Position numbers and translations under genes: made by a program
Notes under the pieces: generated by a model
The model's input: only the letters and a program-made list of their open reading frames with translations
Database searches by the model: none
What the model was told of the DNA's origin: nothing
Shown: positions 50,405 through 64,000 of the stretch, in pieces
Layout of the letters: each line of letters opens with the position of its first letter
How positions within the stretch are numbered: the first letter of the stretch is position 1
NCBI RefSeq assembly: GCF_000376105.1
Contig: NZ_AQWM01000003.1
Span: forward strand, 124,001 to 188,000
DNA: 64,000 nt
Source of the DNA: Asticcacaulis benevestitus DSM 16100 = ATCC BAA-896
GTDB lineage: Bacteria; Pseudomonadota; Alphaproteobacteria; Caulobacterales; Caulobacteraceae
Direction of reading: 5' to 3'

Positions 50405-51301
50405 ATGAGCGCGGTCGAAACCTCCCCCTGGCACCTTGTCCACCATGTCGAACACACCCCCCTGGTCGTCAGGCCGGGTATCGGCGCACCCGTGGGCGTC
50501 CATCGCGTGGTCTACAGCCTGCCGCACAGCGGGCGCTACTATCCGGAAAGCTTTATCGCCGAGGCCCGGCAAAGCCCGCTGGGCCTGCGCGCCAGCGAGG
50601 ACGCCTTTGTCGATGACATGGTGGGGCTGTCGCCGGAACTTGGCGTCTACGGTGTGGCCAGCCGCTACGCCCGCGCCTTTTGCGACGTCAACCGCAGCGC
50701 GCTGGAACTGGACGCCCGCCTGATCCGCGGCGACCTGCCCAAGGCGGCCCTGAGCCTTAGCGCGCGCGTCAAGGCCGGTTTCGGCGTCATCGCCCGCCGC
50801 CTGAGCGTCGATCAGGACATCTATCGCCAGCCGCTCGACATGGCTGAGGTCAACCGCCGCCTCGACCTGATCCACCGCCCCTATCACGATGCGCTGCGAG
50901 CCCTGCTGAGCGAAGCCAAACTCGCACGAAGCGACAGCGCGCCGGTCATCCTGATCGACTGGCATTCGATGCCGAGCACCGCGCTCAATCATTTCCGCGC
51001 CGGTGAGCCCAAGCCGGACATCGTGCTGGGCAATCGCCACGGCGAAACCTGTTCGGACGGGCTGGTGCGCAAGGTGCGGGGCGTGCTGGAAGGCGCAGGC
51101 TTGCGCGTCGGCCTCAACAAGCCGTTTGCCGGCGGCTATATCGTTGAGACCTATGGCCGGCCACAGGCGGGCATCGAAGCGCTGCAGATCGAGATCAACC
51201 GCGCCCTCTATATGGACGAAGCGCTTGTAGAGCCCCGCGCCGGCGCCGAGCGGCTCAAGGGCATCTTCCGCACCCTGACCGAAAAACTCATCACATCCTG
51301 A
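50405..51301 (+). CDS. N-formylglutamate amidohydrolase family protein
   Basis: 298 residues. HRVVYSLPHSGRYYPESF near residue 35, a central ARAFCDVNRSALELD, and DWHSMPS followed by DIVLGNRHGETC are family motifs with zinc-binding His/Asp/Glu. The classical enzyme ends one branch of histidine breakdown (formyl-Glu to Glu + formate), but no hut genes are near, so the real substrate is open. Divergent from cpdR, with 131 bases between starts. Confidence 0.88.
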   Translation: MSAVETSPWHLVHHVEHTPLVVRPGIGAPVGVHRVVYSLPHSGRYYPESFIAEARQSPLGLRASEDAFVDDMVGLSPELGVYGVASRYARAFCDVNRSALELDARLIRGDLPKAALSLSARVKAGFGVIARRLSVDQDIYRQPLDMAEVNRRLDLIHRPYHDALRALLSEAKLARSDSAPVILIDWHSMPSTALNHFRAGEPKPDIVLGNRHGETCSDGLVRKVRGVLEGAGLRVGLNKPFAGGYIVETYGRPQAGIEALQIEINRALYMDEALVEPRAGAERLKGIFRTLTEKLITS

Positions 51302-54185: not shown

Positions 54186-55055
54186 TCAGGACGCCTTGGC
54201 CTGATGCGCTGTTTTCCACGCCGCCGCGCGCTTTTCCCCCTCGGCGGCCTCAGCCGGTTTCAACTGCGGCCTCAGCCAGTCCAGCGCCGAATCGACGTCC
54301 TCACGCTTGGGATCGGCGAGCAGCAACCACTTATAGGCTTCGGCGCGATCCTGAGTGACGCCGCGACCGCTGTAATACATATAGCTGTAATCGAGTTGTG
54401 AGCGCGTATCGCCCTCTTCCGCTGCCTTGCCCAGCCATTGCAGCGCCTTGGCGTCATCCTTCAGGCGGCTGTAGTGATTATAATAGAGATTGCCGAGCGC
54501 AGCGCTCGAACCCTTGACGCCTTGCGCTGACGCCTTGAGCAGCCAGGTTTCAGCCTCTTCATACTGCCCTGCTCCGGCGAAATTGCGACCGAAGATCAGT
54601 TGCGCCTTGCCGTCGCCGGCCGCGGCGGCCTCACCCATCAGCTTGTCGGCGCGCTGGATATCGGGCTCACCCTTGCCGCGGCCGATGCCGATATACGCCG
54701 CCAGCTTGCGCTTGGCTTCCAGACTGCCGGCATCGCTGGCCTTTTGATACCAGGCGATCGCCTGATCGCCGGCCTCTTCGGTCGTGACGGTGTCGTAATG
54801 GTCACCGAGCGCCAGCATGGCCTTGACGTGGCCCTTGGCGGCGGCTTTTTCGAACCAGGCCACCGCCTTATCGCCCTGCGCCTTGAGGCCAAGCTGATAC
54901 AAGGCGTCCGGATCGCCGGTCTGCGCCTCGATCTGCTGCAGGATAGCGTTTTCGCCGGTCTTCCAATTGTGGCTGGCCGCAAATATGCCCCCTGCCACCA
55001 CCGCCAGCACGATCAGTGTGACGATAAATCCGTTCGAACCGTTCTTCTTTTTCAT
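54186..55055 (-). CDS. Membrane-anchored Sel1-repeat protein
   Basis: 289 residues. One N-terminal membrane helix (about 10-27) after a basic start, with no obvious cleavage site, then about six Sel1 repeats (LYQLGLKAQGDKAVAWFEKAAAKGHVKA, MLALGDHYDTV.., YSYMYYSGRGVTQDRAEAYKWLLLA). It should display a solenoid in the periplasm. It lies 29 bases after the transglutaminase-DUF2126 gene on the same strand, so it may be part of that unit. Confidence 0.85.
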   Translation of the reverse strand: MKKKNGSNGFIVTLIVLAVVAGGIFAASHNWKTGENAILQQIEAQTGDPDALYQLGLKAQGDKAVAWFEKAAAKGHVKAMLALGDHYDTVTTEEAGDQAIAWYQKASDAGSLEAKRKLAAYIGIGRGKGEPDIQRADKLMGEAAAAGDGKAQLIFGRNFAGAGQYEEAETWLLKASAQGVKGSSAALGNLYYNHYSRLKDDAKALQWLGKAAEEGDTRSQLDYSYMYYSGRGVTQDRAEAYKWLLLADPKREDVDSALDWLRPQLKPAEAAEGEKRAAAWKTAHQAKAS

Positions 55056-55084: not shown

Positions 55085-58000
55085 TCAAGGCTTCCAGCGC
55101 AGGTCCAGTGTATGCGGGTAATCGGGATTGATCACCACCGGCGGCACCTTGATGCGGCCGGCCGTATGGGTCGGCGCCTCGAAGCGCGACAGGCGACGCC
55201 CTTCGGCCTCGTTCTCGTTGAGCGGCAGGGTGTCGTAGTTGCGCCCGCCCGGGTGCATGACGTGATATTTGCAGCCGCCGAGCGACCGTTCCAGCCGCGT
55301 ATCGAGCACATCGAATTTCAGCGGCGTATTGATCGGCAGGTTGGGATGCAAGGCAGACCACGGATTCCACGCCTTGTAACGGATGCCCGCCACCTGAACA
55401 TTGCCGTCGCGCGTGGGGGAAAGCGGCAGGCGCAGGCCGTTGCAGGTGACGACGTGCTGCGACGACACAGCCCCTTTGAGCAGGATTTCCATGCGCTCGA
55501 CCGATGAGTCGACCCCGCGCGACGTGCCGCCGGCGCTCGATTCCTCGCCCATCACCGGCCACGGCTCCAACGCGTTTTTCAGTTCGAGCGTCACCCCGCC
55601 GATCTGCACCTGCCCGACGCTCGGGAAGCGGAAATCGAAGAAGGGCACGAACCAGTCCGGCGAGAACTTGAAGCCGCTGCGGCCGAGATAGTCGAGCACC
55701 TCGGTCAGGTCTTCATGGACATAATGCCCCAGCATGAAGCGGTCGTGCAGTTGCGTGCCCCAGCGCACCAGCGGCGCCTTGTAGGGTTTCTTCCAGAAGG
55801 ACGCGACAAGCGCCCGGATCAGCAGGGCCTGGATCAGGTTCATTTGCGGATGCGGGCTCATCTCGTAGCCGCGCATTTCCAGCAACCCTAATCGCCCGCG
55901 ATCTGAGTCCGGCGAATAGAGCTTGTCGATGCAGAATTCAGCGCGGTGAGTGTTGCCGGTCAGGTCGACCAAGAGGTTGCGCAACAGGCGATCGACCAGC
56001 CACGGCGCGGTCTCCTCGGTGCCATCCGGCATATTTTTCAGAGCGATTTCAAGCTCATAGAGCGTATCGTGGCGCGCTTCATCGATGCGCGGCGCCTGAG
56101 AGGTGGGCCCGATATAGAGGCCGGAGAAAAGATAGCTTAAGGACGGATGGTTCTGCCAGAAGGTGATCATCGAGCCCAGCACATCCGGCCGGCGCAGGAA
56201 GGGGCTGTCTTCCGGCCTTGAGGCGCCCATGACGATATGGTTGCCGCCGCCGGTGCCGATGCGCTTGCCGTCGATCATGAACTTGTCGGCGATCAGGCGT
56301 GCCTGCGTCGCCTCTTCATAGACCGTGGTGATGATGTTTTTCAACTCGCTCCATGAGCGCGCCGGCTGGATATTGACCTCGATGACGCCGGGATCAGGCG
56401 TGACCGACATGCTCTCGACGCGGTGATCGCGCGGTGGCGAATAGCCTTCGATCACCACCGGGATTTTCAGCGATGTCGCCACGGCCTCGATGGCGTGGAT
56501 CAGGTCGAGATAGTGCTCGATATAGGTCAGGGGCGGCAGGAAGAGGAACAGCTTGCCGTGACGGATTTCAGCGCAGATCGCCGAACGGATCAGGCCGTTG
56601 GAGCCATTACCCTTCCCTTCCGCCACCGCCTTCGCCGTAACCGGGGCGGCGGAAGCCAGGCCGTCCCTGTAGGCTTTTACGGTTTTCGCGCTATCCGCCA
56701 GTGCCCCGGTTTCGGCAAAAGGCGAGCGCGGCGGGAAGAAATGCTCTTCCGCCAGCACCGGATCCACCACCGGCAGCGCGCCCAGCGGCAGACGCAGGCC
56801 CACCGGAGAGTCTCCCGGTATCAGCATCATCTTGTCGGTGCGGAATTTCCAGGCATTGCTGATCCAGCCGTCGGTCTTGGCCGAAAATGCCAACGGCAGG
56901 ACATAGCCGGTCGGTTTGCCGACATTCTCATCCAGCCTGGCCTGCAGGCGCTTGCGCTCGGTCGCTTCAAAGAGATCGGCCTTGAGCATTTCGCCCTCGG
57001 CCGGAATGCGCTGCTCTTTCCACAGCAGATAAGGAATATCCTCATAGGCCGACAGCACGTAATCCGCGCCGACGCCCAGCACATCAGCCAGTTTAGCAAG
57101 GAAATCCCCCGCCACCGCCGCCTTGAGGTCGCTCCTGGCTTCCGGATCGGCCAGCAAGGCCTGATCGAGCCACACCGGCTGACCGTCATGACGCCAGTAC
57201 ATATTCATCGCCCAGCGCGGCAGGATTTCGCCGGGATACCACTTGCCCTGCGCGTGCTGCGCCAGGGCGCCGGTGGCGAAACGCGCCGAAAGCCGCTGGA
57301 AAAGATCGTAGCCCAGCTTCTTTTTGTTGTCGGAAAGCGCCGAGAAATGCCACTCATCGCCCAGACGATCATCAAGACTGACAAAGGTCGGCTCGCCACC
57401 CATGGTCAGGCGGACATCGCCCTCGACCAGCTTTTGATCGACCTGTTCGCCGAGCGCATCGATCGCCTGCCATTCGGAATCCGAATAGGGCTTGGTGACG
57501 CGGCGGCTTTCATAAATGCGCGTGACGCCCATCTCGTGCGCGAAGGTCGATTCCGCTCGCTCGTGCGCGCCGGTGATCGGCGCGGCACTGGTCGGGTTGG
57601 GGGCGCAGCACAGCGGAATATGGCCTTCGCCGGTGAACATGCCGGACGTCGGATCAAGACCGATCCAGCCGGCGCCCGGCAGATAGACCTCGTACCAGGC
57701 GTGCAGGTCGGTGACGTCCTGCGACACCCCCGAAGGCCCGTCGAGCGATTCGATATCGGCCTTGAGCTGGATCGAGTAACCGGAGACAAACCGCGTCGCC
57801 AGCCCCTTGTGGCGCAGGATCTGACAGGCCAGCCAGGCCATATCGCGGCACGAGCCCTGCAAAAGGTTCAGCGTCTGGGCCGAGGTCTGGATGCCCGGCT
57901 CCATGCGCAGGGTATAGCCAAGGTCCTGATTGAGCTTCTGGTTGAAGGCGACGAGGTAATCGACGGTCGGCTTTTGATCATCCGGAATCGAGCGGACATA

Positions 58001-58387
58001 GTCCATCAGGACGTCGTCGTTTTCCTTGATCTCAAGATAGGGCGCCAGTTCTTCATGAAGCGCGGCGTCATAGGTGAAGGGGAAGGTCTGGGCACTGTCT
58101 TCCAGAAAGAAGTCGAACGGATTGAAGACCTTGATCTCCAGCACCAGATCGACCGTCACCTTGAAGGACGAGATCTTTTCCGGAAAGATGATGCGCGCCA
58201 GGTAGTTGCCAAAGGGGTCCTGCTGCCAGTTGATGAAGTGGCCTTCGGGCTCGACCTTCAGGGCGTAGGACTGCACATGGGCCCGGGTGTGCGGTGCCGG
58301 GCGCAGGCGGATGACCTGAGGCCCCAGGGTGATCGGACGATCGTAGCGATAATCCGAAACATGATGCAACGCAGCCAGAATACTCAT
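55085..58387 (-). CDS. Transglutaminase-like protein with DUF2126 domain
   Basis: 1100 residues. Transglutaminase N-terminal beta domain (about 1-90), transglutaminase-like peptidase core (about 150-260) with Cys180 in GSCRDMAWLA, His229 in DLHAWYEVYLPGAGW and Asp245 in GLDPTSG (complete triad), then a long DUF2126 region (about 310-1090). No signal peptide or membrane helix, so cytoplasmic. Such proteins are found next to circularly permuted ATP-grasp and alpha-E genes and are thought to cleave or transfer peptide amide bonds. It is divergent from that group here. Confidence 0.93.
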   Translation of the reverse strand: MSILAALHHVSDYRYDRPITLGPQVIRLRPAPHTRAHVQSYALKVEPEGHFINWQQDPFGNYLARIIFPEKISSFKVTVDLVLEIKVFNPFDFFLEDSAQTFPFTYDAALHEELAPYLEIKENDDVLMDYVRSIPDDQKPTVDYLVAFNQKLNQDLGYTLRMEPGIQTSAQTLNLLQGSCRDMAWLACQILRHKGLATRFVSGYSIQLKADIESLDGPSGVSQDVTDLHAWYEVYLPGAGWIGLDPTSGMFTGEGHIPLCCAPNPTSAAPITGAHERAESTFAHEMGVTRIYESRRVTKPYSDSEWQAIDALGEQVDQKLVEGDVRLTMGGEPTFVSLDDRLGDEWHFSALSDNKKKLGYDLFQRLSARFATGALAQHAQGKWYPGEILPRWAMNMYWRHDGQPVWLDQALLADPEARSDLKAAVAGDFLAKLADVLGVGADYVLSAYEDIPYLLWKEQRIPAEGEMLKADLFEATERKRLQARLDENVGKPTGYVLPLAFSAKTDGWISNAWKFRTDKMMLIPGDSPVGLRLPLGALPVVDPVLAEEHFFPPRSPFAETGALADSAKTVKAYRDGLASAAPVTAKAVAEGKGNGSNGLIRSAICAEIRHGKLFLFLPPLTYIEHYLDLIHAIEAVATSLKIPVVIEGYSPPRDHRVESMSVTPDPGVIEVNIQPARSWSELKNIITTVYEEATQARLIADKFMIDGKRIGTGGGNHIVMGASRPEDSPFLRRPDVLGSMITFWQNHPSLSYLFSGLYIGPTSQAPRIDEARHDTLYELEIALKNMPDGTEETAPWLVDRLLRNLLVDLTGNTHRAEFCIDKLYSPDSDRGRLGLLEMRGYEMSPHPQMNLIQALLIRALVASFWKKPYKAPLVRWGTQLHDRFMLGHYVHEDLTEVLDYLGRSGFKFSPDWFVPFFDFRFPSVGQVQIGGVTLELKNALEPWPVMGEESSAGGTSRGVDSSVERMEILLKGAVSSQHVVTCNGLRLPLSPTRDGNVQVAGIRYKAWNPWSALHPNLPINTPLKFDVLDTRLERSLGGCKYHVMHPGGRNYDTLPLNENEAEGRRLSRFEAPTHTAGRIKVPPVVINPDYPHTLDLRWKP

Positions 58388-58535
58388 CGAATAGCGTCTC
58401 CAGTCAGATTCCGAAGACAGGCCTGTCTCCGGCTAAGGCGGCCGCCGGTCGCGCCCTGCGGCGCTACCCTTGCGGTGATTGAGCTATAAAGATTTACGGA
58501 ATCGCAAAAAAAGTGTCATGTGCAAATCTTTAGGG

Positions 58536-58566
58536 ACTAGACAGCCGCAATTTTAAAAAGTCTAGT
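58536..58566. promoter_or_regulatory. Inverted repeat in the divergent transglutaminase promoter region
   Basis: ACTAGAC (58536-58542) and GTCTAGT (58560-58566) are perfect inverted arms around 17 AT-rich bases, between the two divergent operons. Could be an operator for both. AGACAGGCCTGTCT at 58415-58428 is a second perfect palindrome in the same gap. Confidence 0.35.
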
Positions 58567-58603
58567 TGCATTGCAATATCCCCATGAAAAAGACAGACTT
58601 TTC

Positions 58604-60538
58604 ATGCGGGCAGTAAGGAGCGGGCAACATGGAAAGAAATTTCTTTTGAGCGCGATATCGAGTGACATTCTGGCTTTCAGCTTCGACGGTTTGAGTTCGC
58701 CGGCGATCGACCTTAAGTTCCGCAAGGCCGGGGTCAAGGGGGAACACACGCTGGGCTGGGGCCTTGCCTGGTATCCGGGCGACACCAAGGCCGCCATCGT
58801 GGCCAAGGACCCCTCCGCACGCGACACCAAATCGCTGCATGGCGCCATGCACGACTGGGACAGCTTCCGCTCGACCGTCTTCTTCTGCAAGGTGCGCGGC
58901 GCGGCGTCCGGCTACACCCATTTAGAGACACAGCCCTTCTCGCGCAGCTTTGCCGGTCAGGACTGGGTGTTCATGCACAATGGCGATCTCGACAAGACCG
59001 CCATGACCAAGCTGCACTTCAACAAGTCGATCTTCCTTGAGCCAATGGGCCGCACGGATTCAGAACTCGCCTTCTGCTTCCTGCTCGGCAAGGTGCAGGA
59101 CTATGGCGCCCGCGCGCTGGCCGATATCGATCATCAGGTGCTGCTGAGCTGGTTCCTCCAGCTCGACGATATGGGCAGTGCCGACATGGTGATCTCCGAT
59201 GGCACCACGGTGGCCGCCTTCTACGGCTCGCAGTCGGAAACCCAGATGTTTTACGGCCGCCTCAAGCCGCCGCACGGCGAGCGCGGCTATCATTCTGAAT
59301 CCGCCTCCTTCGCGCTCAATAACCCGCGCGATACCTTCCGCACCGCCATGGTGTTCTGCTCCGCACCCTTCCGCGAAGGCGACTGGAAGCCGATGCAGAA
59401 GGCGCAACTGATCATCGCCCGCCGCGGCAATCTCGTCTGGACCAACAAGAAGGACGACAAGACCCTGCCGGCGCAGCAGCCCCTGCATGAGCAGGAAGGC
59501 CACCTGCAGGGCACGCGCACCGTCCAGCCCAACCTCTTCGCCGACCAGCAAGCACAGGCCCAGCAGCTTTCCATCGTGCAATCCCTGCAGCAGATGAAGA
59601 CGGTGCAGCACAACATCCTCAATGTGCGCTCCCTGACCCACGCCCCCGATGGCACGCCCCTCACCTTCCGCACCTATGATGTCGTGCACTCGACCGAATA
59701 TAATTATGAGCATGAGGTCGAGCATTCGACCCACAGCTTCCGCCTGATGCCGGTAGAAGACGCCGTGCAGGAGGTGGTCAACTGCACGCTCAGCATCTCG
59801 GCCGAGGGCGAGGACATGCGCTTTCAGGATGTGTTCGGCAATCAGAGCATCCATTACAGCATCATCAAGCCCTACAAGAAGCTGACCATTTCCTGCCGCT
59901 CGCTGGTCAAGATCTTCGGCCGCGCCACCGATGACTTCTCGCCGGAAAAGCGCCAGCATTTCATCCCGCTGGCCCTGATGCCGTGGCAACAGCTCATGAT
60001 GGAGCCTTACCTGCGTCCGCCGGAACTGCCGGAAACCCAGATCCAGGAACTGCTGATCTACGCCATGAGCTTCGCCGAGCGTAACGGCCGTCACCTGATG
60101 GATACGCTGAACGACATCAATCAGAGCATCTACCGCGATTATCGCTATGTGCCGGGCTCGACCTCGCTGAAGACGACGCCGTTCGACGTCTATGCTTCGC
60201 GCGAAGGCGTCTGTCAGGATTTCGCCAACCTGTTCATCTGTCTGGCGCGCCTGCTCGGCATCCCGGCGCGCTACCGCGTCGGCTACGTCTTCACCGGCGC
60301 CAACTATGAAAACAAGATGCAGTCCGATGCCAGCCACGCCTGGGTGGAGATCTATATCCCCTATCTCGGCTGGCGCGGCTTTGACCCCACCAACGGCATT
60401 CTGGTGGCGCAGGATCATATCCGCGTCGCCTGCGGCCGCAACTATCTCGATGCGACCCCCACCGCCGGCACCATCTATCGCGGCGGCGGCAAGGAAGCCC
60501 TGCGGGTTCAGGTCACCATGAACGAGGTTTTTAACTGA
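58604..60538 (+). CDS. Class II amidotransferase-like / transglutaminase fusion protein
   Basis: The frame is open from 58571; I use the ATG at 58604, though the start is uncertain. Residues about 15-260 match a class II glutamine amidotransferase (Ntn fold) with GWGLAWYPG, FMHNGDL and GRTDSELAF. Residues about 360-640 are a transglutaminase-like domain with Cys537 in GVCQDFANLF, His578 in SHAWVEIY and Asp594 in FDPTNG. The amidotransferase nucleophile should be Cys2 after the initiator Met; none is present at the matching place (..KKFLLSAISSDI..). A strong AAGGAG points to an out-of-frame ATG at 58629. Confidence 0.88.
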   Translation: MRAVRSGQHGKKFLLSAISSDILAFSFDGLSSPAIDLKFRKAGVKGEHTLGWGLAWYPGDTKAAIVAKDPSARDTKSLHGAMHDWDSFRSTVFFCKVRGAASGYTHLETQPFSRSFAGQDWVFMHNGDLDKTAMTKLHFNKSIFLEPMGRTDSELAFCFLLGKVQDYGARALADIDHQVLLSWFLQLDDMGSADMVISDGTTVAAFYGSQSETQMFYGRLKPPHGERGYHSESASFALNNPRDTFRTAMVFCSAPFREGDWKPMQKAQLIIARRGNLVWTNKKDDKTLPAQQPLHEQEGHLQGTRTVQPNLFADQQAQAQQLSIVQSLQQMKTVQHNILNVRSLTHAPDGTPLTFRTYDVVHSTEYNYEHEVEHSTHSFRLMPVEDAVQEVVNCTLSISAEGEDMRFQDVFGNQSIHYSIIKPYKKLTISCRSLVKIFGRATDDFSPEKRQHFIPLALMPWQQLMMEPYLRPPELPETQIQELLIYAMSFAERNGRHLMDTLNDINQSIYRDYRYVPGSTSLKTTPFDVYASREGVCQDFANLFICLARLLGIPARYRVGYVFTGANYENKMQSDASHAWVEIYIPYLGWRGFDPTNGILVAQDHIRVACGRNYLDATPTAGTIYRGGGKEALRVQVTMNEVFN

Positions 60539-60599
60539 TGTAGACTAGCGGAGCCCCTGTGTGCGCGTACCTGGCACGGGGCGATAACAGACATACTGG

Positions 60600-62057
60600 A
60601 TGACGCTCTTGACGCTTGAGACTTATAAGACCGACGGCTTCTACGACGAGCTTTTTGCCGAGAACGGCGTGGCGCATCCAAGCGCCCGGCCGCTGATCGA
60701 GCAGATCGACACCCTGACACGCGCTGGCCTCGGCCGGCGGCAAAAACAGGCGGAAGATATCCTTTATCAGTCCGGTAACACCTTCAATGTCTATGGCGAC
60801 AAGAAGGGCACCGAGAAGATCCTGCCGTTCGACATCATTCCGCGCATCGTCTCCGGCGCCGACTGGGCCAAGCTGGAGCGCGGCATCGCCCAGCGCATCA
60901 CGGCGCTCAACCTGTTCATCCAGGACATCTACAACGATCAGAAGATCATCAAGGACAAGGTGGTGCCGGCAGAGTTGATTTTCTCGTCGGCCTGCTACCT
61001 CAAGCCCTGCGAAGGCCTGAAGCCGCCCAAGGGCGTATGGACGCATATTTCCGGCACCGATTTCGTCCGGGACGGTGACGGCGAGTTCTACGTGCTGGAG
61101 GATAACCTGCGCTGCCCGTCGGGCATTTCCTACGTGCTGGAAAACCGCGCCGTGCTCAAACGCATCCTGCCGGCCCTCTTCCACACCATGAAGATCCGTC
61201 CGGTCTCCGATTATGGCGACCACCTGTACAAGACGCTGAAGCACATCGCGCCCGAAGGCCGGGACGATCCCAACATCATCGTGCTGACCCCCGGCATCTA
61301 CAATTCGGCCTATTTCGAGCACGCCTATCTGGCGCAGCAAATGGGCGTGCCGCTGGCGCAGGGCTCCGACCTCGTGGTCGATGACGATGTCGTCTACATG
61401 CGCACCACCGCCGGCCTGCAGCGCGTCGATGTCATCTACCGCCGCATCGATGACGAGTTCATCGACCCGACCGTCTTCCGCAAGGAATCGCTCTTGGGCG
61501 TGCCCGGTATCATGAACGCCTACCGTAAGGGCAATGTGGCCCTGGCCAATGCGCCTGGCACCGGCATCGCCGACGACAAGGCGATCTATGCCTATGTGCC
61601 AAAGATCATCAAATATTACCTCGGTGAAGAGGCGATTTCGCACAATGTGCCGACCTATATCTGCGAGGACGATAAGGAGCGCGAGTACGTTTTGGCCAAT
61701 CTCGACAAGCTGGTGGTCAAGGCGGTCAATCTCTCCGGCGGTTATGGCATGCTGATCGGGCCGAAATCGACCAAGGCCGAGCAGAAGGAATTCGCCGCCC
61801 TGATCAAGGCCAAGCCGCGCGACTATATCGCCCAGCCGACGCTGTCGCTGTCACGCGCCCCGACCCTCATCGGCAACGGCATCGAAGGCCGCCATGTCGA
61901 TTTCCGCCCCTATTCGCTCTACGGCGAGGAGATCTTCACCCTGCCCGGCGGCCTGACCCGCGTCGCCATCAAGAAGGGCTCGCTGGTGGTGAACTCATCG
62001 CAGGGCGGCGGCTCAAAGGACACCTGGGTGCTTGAAGATGAAGCGGAGGCAAACTGA
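60600..62057 (+). CDS. Circularly permuted ATP-grasp protein
   Basis: 485 residues. Matches the circularly permuted ATP-grasp type 2 family (DUF404/DUF407): an N-terminal DGFYDELF, FNVYGDKKGTEKILPFDIIPRI, LFIQDIYNDQKI, VLEDNLRCPSGISYVLENR, AQQMGVPLAQGSDLVVDDDVVYMRT and a C-terminal SGGYGMLIGP and FTLPGGLTRVA. It probably forms an amide bond using ATP. 61 bases after the fusion gene; the next gene starts inside its stop (TGATG). Confidence 0.93.
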   Translation: MTLLTLETYKTDGFYDELFAENGVAHPSARPLIEQIDTLTRAGLGRRQKQAEDILYQSGNTFNVYGDKKGTEKILPFDIIPRIVSGADWAKLERGIAQRITALNLFIQDIYNDQKIIKDKVVPAELIFSSACYLKPCEGLKPPKGVWTHISGTDFVRDGDGEFYVLEDNLRCPSGISYVLENRAVLKRILPALFHTMKIRPVSDYGDHLYKTLKHIAPEGRDDPNIIVLTPGIYNSAYFEHAYLAQQMGVPLAQGSDLVVDDDVVYMRTTAGLQRVDVIYRRIDDEFIDPTVFRKESLLGVPGIMNAYRKGNVALANAPGTGIADDKAIYAYVPKIIKYYLGEEAISHNVPTYICEDDKEREYVLANLDKLVVKAVNLSGGYGMLIGPKSTKAEQKEFAALIKAKPRDYIAQPTLSLSRAPTLIGNGIEGRHVDFRPYSLYGEEIFTLPGGLTRVAIKKGSLVVNSSQGGGSKDTWVLEDEAEAN

Positions 62058-62995
62058 TGCTGAGCCGTGTCGCCAACTCCATCTACTGGATGGCCCGCTA
62101 TCTCGAACGCGCCGATTGCGTGGCGCGCTTCATCGACGTCAACACCCATCTGATGCTCGATCTGGCGCTCGATCAGAACTCGGCCCAGTGGTATCCTCTG
62201 ATCGCCACCTCCGGCGACGACGAGGACTTCACCCGCCGCTACAAGCAGGCGGATGAAAGCACCGTGGTCAAGTTCATGACCTTCGATCGCAATAATCCCA
62301 ATTCGATCCTGCAATGTATCTTCCGCGCCCGCGAAAACGCCCGCACGGTGCGCGAGGTCATTCCGGTCGAGATGTGGGAGAAGATCAACGAGCTTTACCA
62401 CCTGACGCAAAGCCAGAGCCGCAAGCGCTCCGTGGCCGATCTGCAGGACTATTACCGCGAGGTGCGCCAGTCCGGCCACCTGTTCACCGGCCTGATGCAC
62501 AACACGATGAGCCGTGACATGGGCTGGCAGTTCGCCCACCTCGGCCAGATGCTGGAGCGCGCCGACAAGACCGCCCGCCTGCTCGATGTGAAATACTTCC
62601 TGCTGCTGCCGCACAATGACGTCTGGAAGGACAGCGCCTATGACGCCGTGCAGTGGGGCGCCGTGCTCAAATCGGTCAATGCGCTGGAAATGTACCGCCA
62701 GCAGTTCCACACCATCAACTACAAGGACGTGACGCAGTTCCTGCTGTTCTCCAAGGCCTTCCCGCGCTCGGTCCTCTTCTGTCTGGAAGACGCCTCCGCC
62801 GCGCTCGATACCCTGACGCACGACAAGGCCGAGGCCAACAAGGCGACACGCGAAATGGCGATCCTGTGCAAGACCATCCATAGCTCCGACGCCAGCCATA
62901 TCATCTCGGCCGGCCTGCACGAGTTCATCGATATCTTCCAGTACAACCTCAACCTGGTCGACGAAGCGATCTACGAAAGCTATTTCAAGGATTAG
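62057..62995 (+). CDS. Alpha-E domain protein (DUF403)
   Basis: 312 residues, all-helical. It opens with the family signature MLSRVANSIYWMARYLERADCVARFIDVNTHLMLD, with conserved Arg/Glu pairs throughout. Alpha-E proteins occur only next to the permuted ATP-grasp protein, sometimes fused, and are thought to be its partner. Translation is coupled to that gene. Its stop codon TAG runs into a repeat element (62994 onward), so the exact C-terminus may have been set by the element. Confidence 0.93.
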   Translation: MLSRVANSIYWMARYLERADCVARFIDVNTHLMLDLALDQNSAQWYPLIATSGDDEDFTRRYKQADESTVVKFMTFDRNNPNSILQCIFRARENARTVREVIPVEMWEKINELYHLTQSQSRKRSVADLQDYYREVRQSGHLFTGLMHNTMSRDMGWQFAHLGQMLERADKTARLLDVKYFLLLPHNDVWKDSAYDAVQWGAVLKSVNALEMYRQQFHTINYKDVTQFLLFSKAFPRSVLFCLEDASAALDTLTHDKAEANKATREMAILCKTIHSSDASHIISAGLHEFIDIFQYNLNLVDEAIYESYFKD

Positions 62996-63167: not shown

Positions 63168-64000
63168 ATGCGTTATCCGGCCTGTTTAATCGTCCTTGCC
63201 GCCAGCCTTGCCTTTCCGGCTCTCGCTCAGGATAATGCCGACATCGAAGCCCTCAAGGCGGCGGTGACGCAAAACGCCGATCCGGATTATCATGTCCTGC
63301 CATTGGCGCTTGAAGAGAGCGGCAAGATGCTCCAGCATTTTACCCAGACCAAGAGCACCACACGCGGCAGTGTCACCCAAAGCGGCACCGGCACGGCGGA
63401 TTACAGCCTTGTCTATGCGCAGACTGAAGATGGCTACCGCGTCACCAAGACCCTGCTCAAGTTCGCGATCTCCGATGTCACCGATCCGGCCATCAAAGAG
63501 GGTATGAAGGACCCGGCCGCGGCGAAGATGATGGAAAACCTGACCTCCGCCCTGTCGCCGCTCAGCTACAGCGCCGATGAAAGCCTGTCACCGGTCCTGA
63601 TCGAGGACTGGGAAGGCACGAAGGCGCGCGTCATGAAGGCCGTGAACGACATGGCGGCGAGTGTCGGTGCCTCGCCTCAGGAAGCCGCGCAACTCAAACA
63701 AGCCATGAATGCCGTCTATGGCCAGCTCACGCCGGAAACCGCCACCGGCATGTTCCTTGAAACCGATCGCATGATGGCGCTGCCGCACAATATCGGCCTA
63801 AGCCTGAACAAGCCGATCACCGCCACCAGCCAGATCCAGATGCCGCTGGGCGGTCAGCCGATCGACGCTCAGGTAAGCATCGCCCTCATAAGCTGGAATG
63901 ATGCCGGCAATACGGCGCATGTCAGCTATGACTACGCCCCGACACCGGAGTCATTGAAGACCTACCTTACCACCTTCCTGCCCACATTCATGAAACAGGC
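63168..64000 (+). CDS. Secreted protein of unknown function (partial)
   Basis: 277 residues are visible and the frame is open to the window end. The start ATG has GGGGA upstream. Signal peptide MRYPACLIVLAASLAFPALA-QDN ends at residue 20 or so. The mature part has repeated polar strands (GSVTQSGTGTADYSLVYAQTEDGYRVTKTLL) and helices (KEGMKDPAAAKMMENL). There are no cysteines after the signal. No family recognised. It probably has its own promoter, since the repeat element separates it from the alpha-E gene. Confidence 0.7.
   Translation, partial: MRYPACLIVLAASLAFPALAQDNADIEALKAAVTQNADPDYHVLPLALEESGKMLQHFTQTKSTTRGSVTQSGTGTADYSLVYAQTEDGYRVTKTLLKFAISDVTDPAIKEGMKDPAAAKMMENLTSALSPLSYSADESLSPVLIEDWEGTKARVMKAVNDMAASVGASPQEAAQLKQAMNAVYGQLTPETATGMFLETDRMMALPHNIGLSLNKPITATSQIQMPLGGQPIDAQVSIALISWNDAGNTAHVSYDYAPTPESLKTYLTTFLPTFMKQ

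Follow-up and report, generated by a model that had tools for sequence, protein, structure and literature searches.

A serine-bearing GATase_4–transglutaminase fusion in the Ntn slot of a predicted permuted ATP-grasp/alpha-E peptide-amide system of Asticcacaulis

Introduction

The closest described relatives of the locus reported here, a divergent four-gene set in a 64,000-nucleotide stretch of Asticcacaulis benevestitus DSM 16100 (contig NZ_AQWM01000003.1, positions 124,001 to 188,000; hereafter the window), are the Anbu operons, in which a permuted ATP-grasp protein, an alpha-E protein and a bacterial transglutaminase (TG) are encoded together with Anbu, a proteasome-like protein of the N-terminal nucleophile (Ntn) fold. 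Iyer et al. (2009) reportedly predicted a peptide-tagging system composed of an ATP-grasp, a permuted glutamine synthetase (GS)-like ligase, an Ntn-hydrolase and an alpha-helical domain; the window has members of all four part classes, the third of them by its Ntn fold, which belongs to a GATase_4 domain that has Ser for Cys and is fused to a TG. One obstacle to assigning a function to the alpha-E/ATP-grasp/Anbu operons is that no activity of Anbu could be measured (PMC6376114).

The window's set can be regarded, with good support, as a four-gene subtype of these predicted systems, in which a single protein, a GATase_4-type Ntn fold fused to a TG, stands where the classic operon has a separate TG and Anbu. 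This set shares with the Anbu operon the ATP-grasp, the alpha-E protein, the bacterial TG and an Ntn-fold protein, and differs in that its Ntn fold is a GATase_4 with Ser, fused to TG and not proteasome-like, in that its ATP-grasp belongs to another clade and in that it has a divergent TG-DUF2126 arm. The kind of system had already been predicted; what is new is the serine GATase-TG fusion occupying the Ntn slot. Our overall reading, to which we give a probability of about 0.6, is a peptide-amide system with the serine domain in the slot of Anbu; its parts, synteny, clade, residue changes and constraint are described below, and from them we infer an amide-forming chemistry, an Anbu-like function and a nitrogen role.

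Results

Composition of the locus

The genes of the set and the region between its two arms are as follows.

55085..58387, minus strand: TG-DUF2126 amidoligase, 1100 aa (TG about 1-276, DUF2126 277-1097; Pfam)
58388..58645: intergenic region between the two divergent arms, holding conserved blocks (aligned for the window and 15 Asticcacaulis loci)
58646..60538, plus strand: Ser-GATase_4/TG fusion, 630 aa, TTG start (Pfam; start from relatives)
60600..62057, plus strand: circularly permuted ATP-grasp, 485 aa (Pfam CP_ATPgrasp_1/2; 3n6x_A)
62057..62995, plus strand: Alpha-E protein, 312 aa (Pfam; conserved E17-R18 and E167-R168)

A preliminary description of the window had proposed a double-transglutaminase/ATP-grasp/alpha-E system that makes or modifies peptides, its product unknown. 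The cluster is real, both TG domains have full triads and the proposed role agrees with ours, but some of the domain calls needed correcting. The leftward gene, which had been taken for simply a second transglutaminase, does contain Bact_transglu_N and Transglut_core with a triad (Cys180/His229/Asp245) complete in 31/31 large proteins (the window's and those of 30 loci); its C-terminal 820 residues, however, match the putative amidoligase DUF2126 (residues 277-1097, 1216 bits), which had been missed. When the DUF2126 model (mean pLDDT 76.6, pTM 0.79) was compared with the PDB, the first 28 matches were all glutamine synthetases or GS-like proteins, and these consistent though weak matches (E 2.2e-2 for the best, so all above 0.001) suggest, together with the profile, that the second ligase is GS-like. 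The same two-domain architecture of TG and carboxylate-amine ligase has been described for Rv2566, a type proposed to form small peptides and not to conjugate proteins (PMC2588565); unlike that type, the window's gene lies divergent to a Ser-GATase-TG/ATP-grasp/alpha-E operon.

The permuted ATP-grasp (CP_ATPgrasp_1/2, best E 2e-167; solved structure 3n6x_A, E 8.4e-163) and its alpha-E partner (E 1.1e-94) had been recognised correctly. The two genes overlap by a single base (62057), which closes the ATP-grasp stop codon and opens alpha-E, and the pairs E17-R18 and E167-R168 of alpha-E are invariant in 32/32 proteins. In 13 open reading frames (ORFs) of the alpha-E neighbourhoods (L087-L175) ATP-grasp and alpha-E are fused, which suggests that the two proteins act together. 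An ATP-grasp from a Yersinia Anbu operon frees phosphate from ATP (PMC6376114). Among solved structures neither alpha-E nor the TG-DUF2126 protein had a sequence match up to E 0.001, and in NCBIfam no family reached its curated cut-off for any of the six proteins searched.

The serine-bearing GATase_4 domain

The fusion matches GATase_4 (E 2.4e-44), Bact_transglu_N and Transglut_core, and consists of a leader MSAIS, Ser6 as first residue of a GATase fold (about 6-268), a linker (about 269-335) and a TG part (about 336-630). Its start was placed at TTG 58646 and not at the first open TTG (58571), because, across 26 loci (those of the own genome plus 25 relatives), the start codon closest to the conserved Ser/Thr-Ser-Asp-Ile stretch stands 4-7 codons ahead of it. 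The 59 loci, which include many genes retrieved twice, were reduced to 41 distinct fused proteins by merging identical tails, and the TG triad Cys523/His564/Asp580 is complete in all of them (41/41).

The earlier call of an amidotransferase-like domain fused to a TG holds for the fold, which is that of class-II glutamine amidotransferases (GATases; Pfam, Foldseek), but the name is unjustified, as the N-terminal catalytic Cys is absent. Canonical GATase_4 rows, for which L065 and L068 were also used, start MCELLGMS, and the fusions have Ser-Asp-Ile in place of Cys-Glu-Leu. The Cys (11/12 canonical rows, the own-genome paralogue L194 having no readable N-terminus in that frame) is Ser6 in 41/41 fused proteins, and the His of the xHxR strand (12/12 canonical rows) is Lys82, likewise in 41/41. 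Asp7, His111 and Gly113 are present in 41/41 and Asp138 in 40/41; Gln96 (His in 11/12 canonical rows) and Asp180 are invariant among the fused proteins. The retrieval patterns span residues 102-117 only, so that Ser6 and Lys82 were not forced, and remote relatives were missed. The catalytic and pocket roles given here are those of GATases, in which the xHxR Arg (Arg84 here) holds the glutamine carboxylate. Should the site be active, the changes from Cys to Ser and from His to Lys would have exchanged the nucleophile, which is unusual for a class-II GATase fold.

With the start set at the nearest upstream ATG, GTG or TTG, the leader before Ser in 25 aligned proteins comprises one residue in two, five in eight, six in four and eight in 11, and the residue at -1 varies (S/T/L/N/A). 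Several of the eight-residue leaders, from distant taxa, have the form MFx(I/L)PxLx, and this common form suggests that the leader may matter. In six pairs the ratio of nonsynonymous to synonymous substitution rates (dN/dS) was 0.07-0.15 for the GATase part, 0.06-0.19 for the TG and 0.13-0.33 for the linker, some of the pairs having a dS close to 1 or higher; the GATase domain is under purifying selection.

In Foldseek the fusion model retrieved 1te5 first (E 5.1e-16), then 3isr and EgtC (4zfk, E 4.2e-10): the Ntn fold of the set is of the GATase_4 type bearing Ser, nearest to GATase_4 (1te5) and next, among Ntn folds, to EgtC, with beta-lactam synthetases among the matches. Resting on 25 sequences, this model is of mediocre quality (mean pLDDT 63.5, with a large share of the TG part below 50) and serves here for the fold but not for the geometry of the active site. 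The fusion thus resembles YafJ/GATase_4 class-II GATases and EgtC in fold and departs from them by the Cys-to-Ser and His-to-Lys changes, the short leader and the C-terminal TG; it would join an Ntn step and a TG step in one chain. The available text of the literature searched held no description of a GATase-TG fusion.

Distribution and gene order

The fusion was found over nearly its full length in 25/25 Asticcacaulis genomes searched, in 0/12 genomes from the rest of the family and in 1/24 from other families of the order. Among 299 Pseudomonadota genomes, 156 of which have alpha-E, the fused GATase part was found only in the window's own (E<=1e-8), and the other GATase matches at this threshold lie in frames of 256-396 aa, a length typical of GATase_4 proteins that stand alone. 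The retrieval from public contigs gave 40 loci, 33 of them (L032-L064) with the fusion; the remainder (L065-L071), weak matches to unfused proteins, were left out. The 33 comprise 16 loci of Asticcacaulis and 17 others, among them alphaproteobacteria, a Pseudomonadales metagenome-assembled genome (MAG), Melainabacteria, Polyangia, Lentisphaera and Verrucomicrobia (many of the fusion loci come from MAGs, and single taxon assignments may be wrong).

The arrangement is not due to chance, because 28/33 public loci carry all four genes arranged as in the window, with TG-DUF2126 leftward and GATase-TG, ATP-grasp and alpha-E rightward. The preliminary description had made its proposal depend on the divergent halves being conserved together, which is borne out by 31/33 loci (in L055 and L063 the large gene is cut by the contig); ATP-grasp and alpha-E are close to the fusion, again, in 31/33. 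At L057 (Algimonas) and L059 (Hyphomonas) the divergent pair stands by itself and a full ATP-grasp/alpha-E/TG/Anbu operon lies elsewhere in the genome, at L055 (a 3.3-kb contig) the right-hand genes are inverted, and L064 has the order ATP-grasp, alpha-E, fusion. The left half is missing from two loci, L046 (A. tiandongensis) and L064, and DUF2126 was not found anywhere in their genomes; L046 is a natural three-gene form. DUF2126 as an obligate partner is therefore rejected: G005 (99% complete) and G369 (1.5 Mb) have the fusion, ATP-grasp and alpha-E but no DUF2126, and so possess the components of an Anbu operon in which the Ntn fold is a different one. G361 (L055) has no DUF2126 match either, but there the contig is cut inside the gene.

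Relation to the Anbu operons

The preliminary description had drawn no link to the Anbu operons or to nitrogen supply. Anbu was found in 0/33 fusion loci within the stretch covered, and the own genome has one PF00227 match, which is HslV-sized (187 aa), lies on another contig and does not qualify as an Anbu gene. By comparison, 90 alpha-E neighbourhoods were sampled (about one per genus among the alpha-E matches listed plus extra picks, hence not a random sample; the extra picks were L175, chosen for the fusion, L178 and second copies in G188 and G030, with L176 and L177 left out): 50 contain Anbu (Anbu only in 45, Anbu with DUF2126 in five), and one contains the fusion with DUF2126.

A quick maximum-likelihood tree of 135 ATP-grasps (with a long-branch warning for the ATP-grasp/alpha-E fusions, and with L062 and L175 being one locus twice) placed those of 30/31 fusion rows in one clade (SH-aLRT 98), the exception being L064. 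Anbu-type rows from Caulobacteraceae fall in another clade, and the window's ATP-grasp does not group with the Anbu type; on this tree, the Asticcacaulis locus is thus not an altered copy of the family's Anbu operon but another subtype. Judged by record titles, the clade spans five phyla (Pseudomonadota, Cyanobacteriota/Melainabacteria, Myxococcota, Lentisphaerota and Verrucomicrobiota), so the four-gene unit probably moves horizontally between phyla. In 13 non-Asticcacaulis loci (including two near-identical pairs and one truncated row) the tree distances of the four proteins correlate (r 0.41-0.89; 0-5 of 999 permutations as high), best for ATP-grasp with alpha-E (0.89) and TG-DUF2126 with the fusion (0.83) and less well across these pairs (0.41-0.51), a pattern that fits two modules mostly travelling together.

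A further, mixed form occurs at L144, L157, L161 and L165, where Anbu and TG-DUF2126 make up a tandem and a gene that fuses ATP-grasp to alpha-E diverges from it.

Regulation and nitrogen

The 258-bp divergent region contains two conserved elements, an A-rich block (58494-58518) and a dyad:

58536..58566: dyad ACTAGAC-N17-GTCTAGT, candidate shared operator (kept in 11/16 aligned rows)

Both are conserved across much of the genus. The A-rich block occurs at one place in the genome and its control at none. The dyad, too, has a single genome match, yet its reversed-pattern control also matches one place, so its rarity is no evidence and only its conservation speaks for it; as no second place was found, the idea of a wider regulon sharing the dyad was discarded. 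No Rfam match up to E 1 was found in 58200-58800 that would indicate an intergenic RNA element.

A nitrogen role in Asticcacaulis may be proposed by analogy with the homologous operons of other bacteria. In an ntrC mutant of Burkholderia, expression of the DUF404/407 and DUF403 genes and of two TG genes is reduced 6- to 9-fold (PMC5491218); growth of Pseudomonas putida on nitrate instead of ammonium goes with higher levels of PP_2685 (proteasome beta subunit; log2 4.4) and PP_2688 (permuted ATP-grasp; log2 4.0) (PMC8050072); and nitrogen starvation raises Anbu expression (PMC6376114 and PMC5666114).

Discussion

In the mechanism that we envisage, the ATP-grasp with alpha-E would activate a carboxylate and form an amide bond, the GS-like DUF2126 would form a second ATP-dependent amide by joining an amine or ammonia to a carboxylate, and the two papain-like TG domains would cut or transfer amides. 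The Ser-GATase would bind glutamine or a gamma-glutamyl-like group and then hydrolyse or sense it, presumably the job of Anbu elsewhere; the product would probably be a small peptide or peptide tag for nitrogen storage or recycling. The proteins look, by eye, cytoplasmic. A variant whose Ntn fold has a glutamine pocket would narrow the substrate shared with the Anbu operons to glutamine or a gamma-glutamyl-like group.

The serine domain itself can be read in several ways. At somewhat less than even odds we regard it as a pseudo-enzyme, a sensor of glutamine (or a peptide) or a scaffold that steers the fused TG, much as the N-domain of beta-lactam synthetases, which are among the fold matches, has kept the fold and lost the glutaminase activity. 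The absence of the Cys in 41/41 proteins is consistent with this, as are the loss of Arg84 in 11/41 and of Asn112 in 2/41, the varied residue at -1 and the five to eight residues that precede Ser in 23/25 aligned proteins (nearest start codon); Ser6 and Lys82, however, are invariant over several phyla, with no drift as in a dead site, and 2/25 proteins begin with Met-Ser, a usual substrate of methionine aminopeptidase. A more tentative proposal, to which we lean less than halfway, is that of a putative active Ser-type Ntn amidase or isopeptidase, in which Ser6 and Lys82 replace the Cys-type site and do the trimming of Anbu, and in which Ser6 might, with the same tentativeness, be freed by removal of Met or by self-cleavage of the short leader. 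It draws on Ser6, Asp7 and Lys82 being constant where canonical GATase_4 rows have Cys and His, on the domain taking the place of Anbu in the gene set, and on a fold nearest to GATase_4 and then to EgtC, a gamma-glutamyl hydrolase; what argues against it is that the residue at -1 is not Gly, which is usual before self-cleaved Ntn nucleophiles. Ser has also been reported as the nucleophile in some of the proteasome homologues BPH (PMC5777263), which we count in favour of the Ser-type Ntn proposal. The bolder version, in which a GATase fold was remade into a Ser-Lys Ntn (iso)peptidase and took over from Anbu in a mobile system for tagging with peptides or storing them, is in our view doubtful; if true, two distinct Ntn families would have been recruited to one slot, and the slot would need an Ntn amidase.

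Two further explanations carry little weight. An ordinary glutamine amidotransferase with Ser for Cys, supplying ammonia to the ligases, would agree with the GATase_4 profile and with the retained Asp138, His111 and Gly113, but it is very unlikely given a nucleophile lost from every fused protein and a carboxylate Arg lost from 11. The cluster might also belong to secondary metabolism, with an antibiotic or a siderophore-like product, and have no housekeeping role in peptide metabolism, as its sporadic spread over phyla and the presence of the fused form in 1/299 Pseudomonadota genomes would allow; this seems improbable with the fusion in every Asticcacaulis genome searched and with no exporter, carrier-protein or tailoring gene in the window's cluster (ORFs and Pfam; other loci were judged by the query set only).

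Several observations weigh against a peptide-amide system with the serine domain in Anbu's slot. The pocket is partly eroded, Arg84 being retained in 30/41 fused proteins (12/12 canonical rows) and Asn112 of the HNG motif in 39/41, and several of the phyla rest on MAG contigs. A nearby Ntn partner is not obligatory, since 26 of the 90 alpha-E neighbourhoods have neither Anbu, DUF2126 nor the fusion in the stretch covered and 13 have DUF2126 only. Nor are the two Ntn proteins mutually exclusive: Anbu is also present in 3/42 fusion genomes (G015, G363 and G365), which weakens a strict replacement of Anbu, and the ATP-grasp and alpha-E genes of G363 and G365 neighbour Anbu, away from the fusion. 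The 42 genomes are 25 of Asticcacaulis, G044 and 16 others; eight were also searched with an Anbu protein and the others judged by size and region of their PF00227 matches, so that the count could have missed a divergent Anbu or one absent from an incomplete MAG. The Anbu of G015 (L176, G015:C144) lies at a contig end of an Asticcacaulis MAG with 4% contamination and has no partners in the preceding 8.5 kb. PMC6376114 found neither peptidase activity of Anbu nor a specific interaction between Anbu and the proteins encoded with it, and PMC5666114 reports that the Pseudomonas operon is not essential without stress and that its expression is unchanged under various conditions, though raised in nitrogen-limited P. 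putida. A sigma-54 site was not seen in the window's intergenic region, which was inspected by eye without a formal scan.

Neighbouring genes

The gene next to the large protein had been counted as an addition to the core:

54186..55055, minus strand: Sel1-repeat protein, genus-limited neighbour, non-core (Pfam)

It has an N-terminal hydrophobic stretch (judged by eye) and a match in 12/16 Asticcacaulis loci (adjacent to the cluster in ten) but in 0/17 other loci, some of which have little left flank; it is a genus-limited, fast-changing neighbour, and its place in the core was given up. On the other side, adjoining alpha-E, the window's positions 63168-64000 encode an exported-looking protein (by eye) with no Pfam match, relatives of which (about 32-40% identity) occur in 7/16 Asticcacaulis loci, in three of these in two copies. 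About 4 kb to the left of the cluster lies an N-formylglutamate amidohydrolase-like gene (50405-51301, Pfam), and a similar gene also lies within the stretch covered at L032, L033 and L047.

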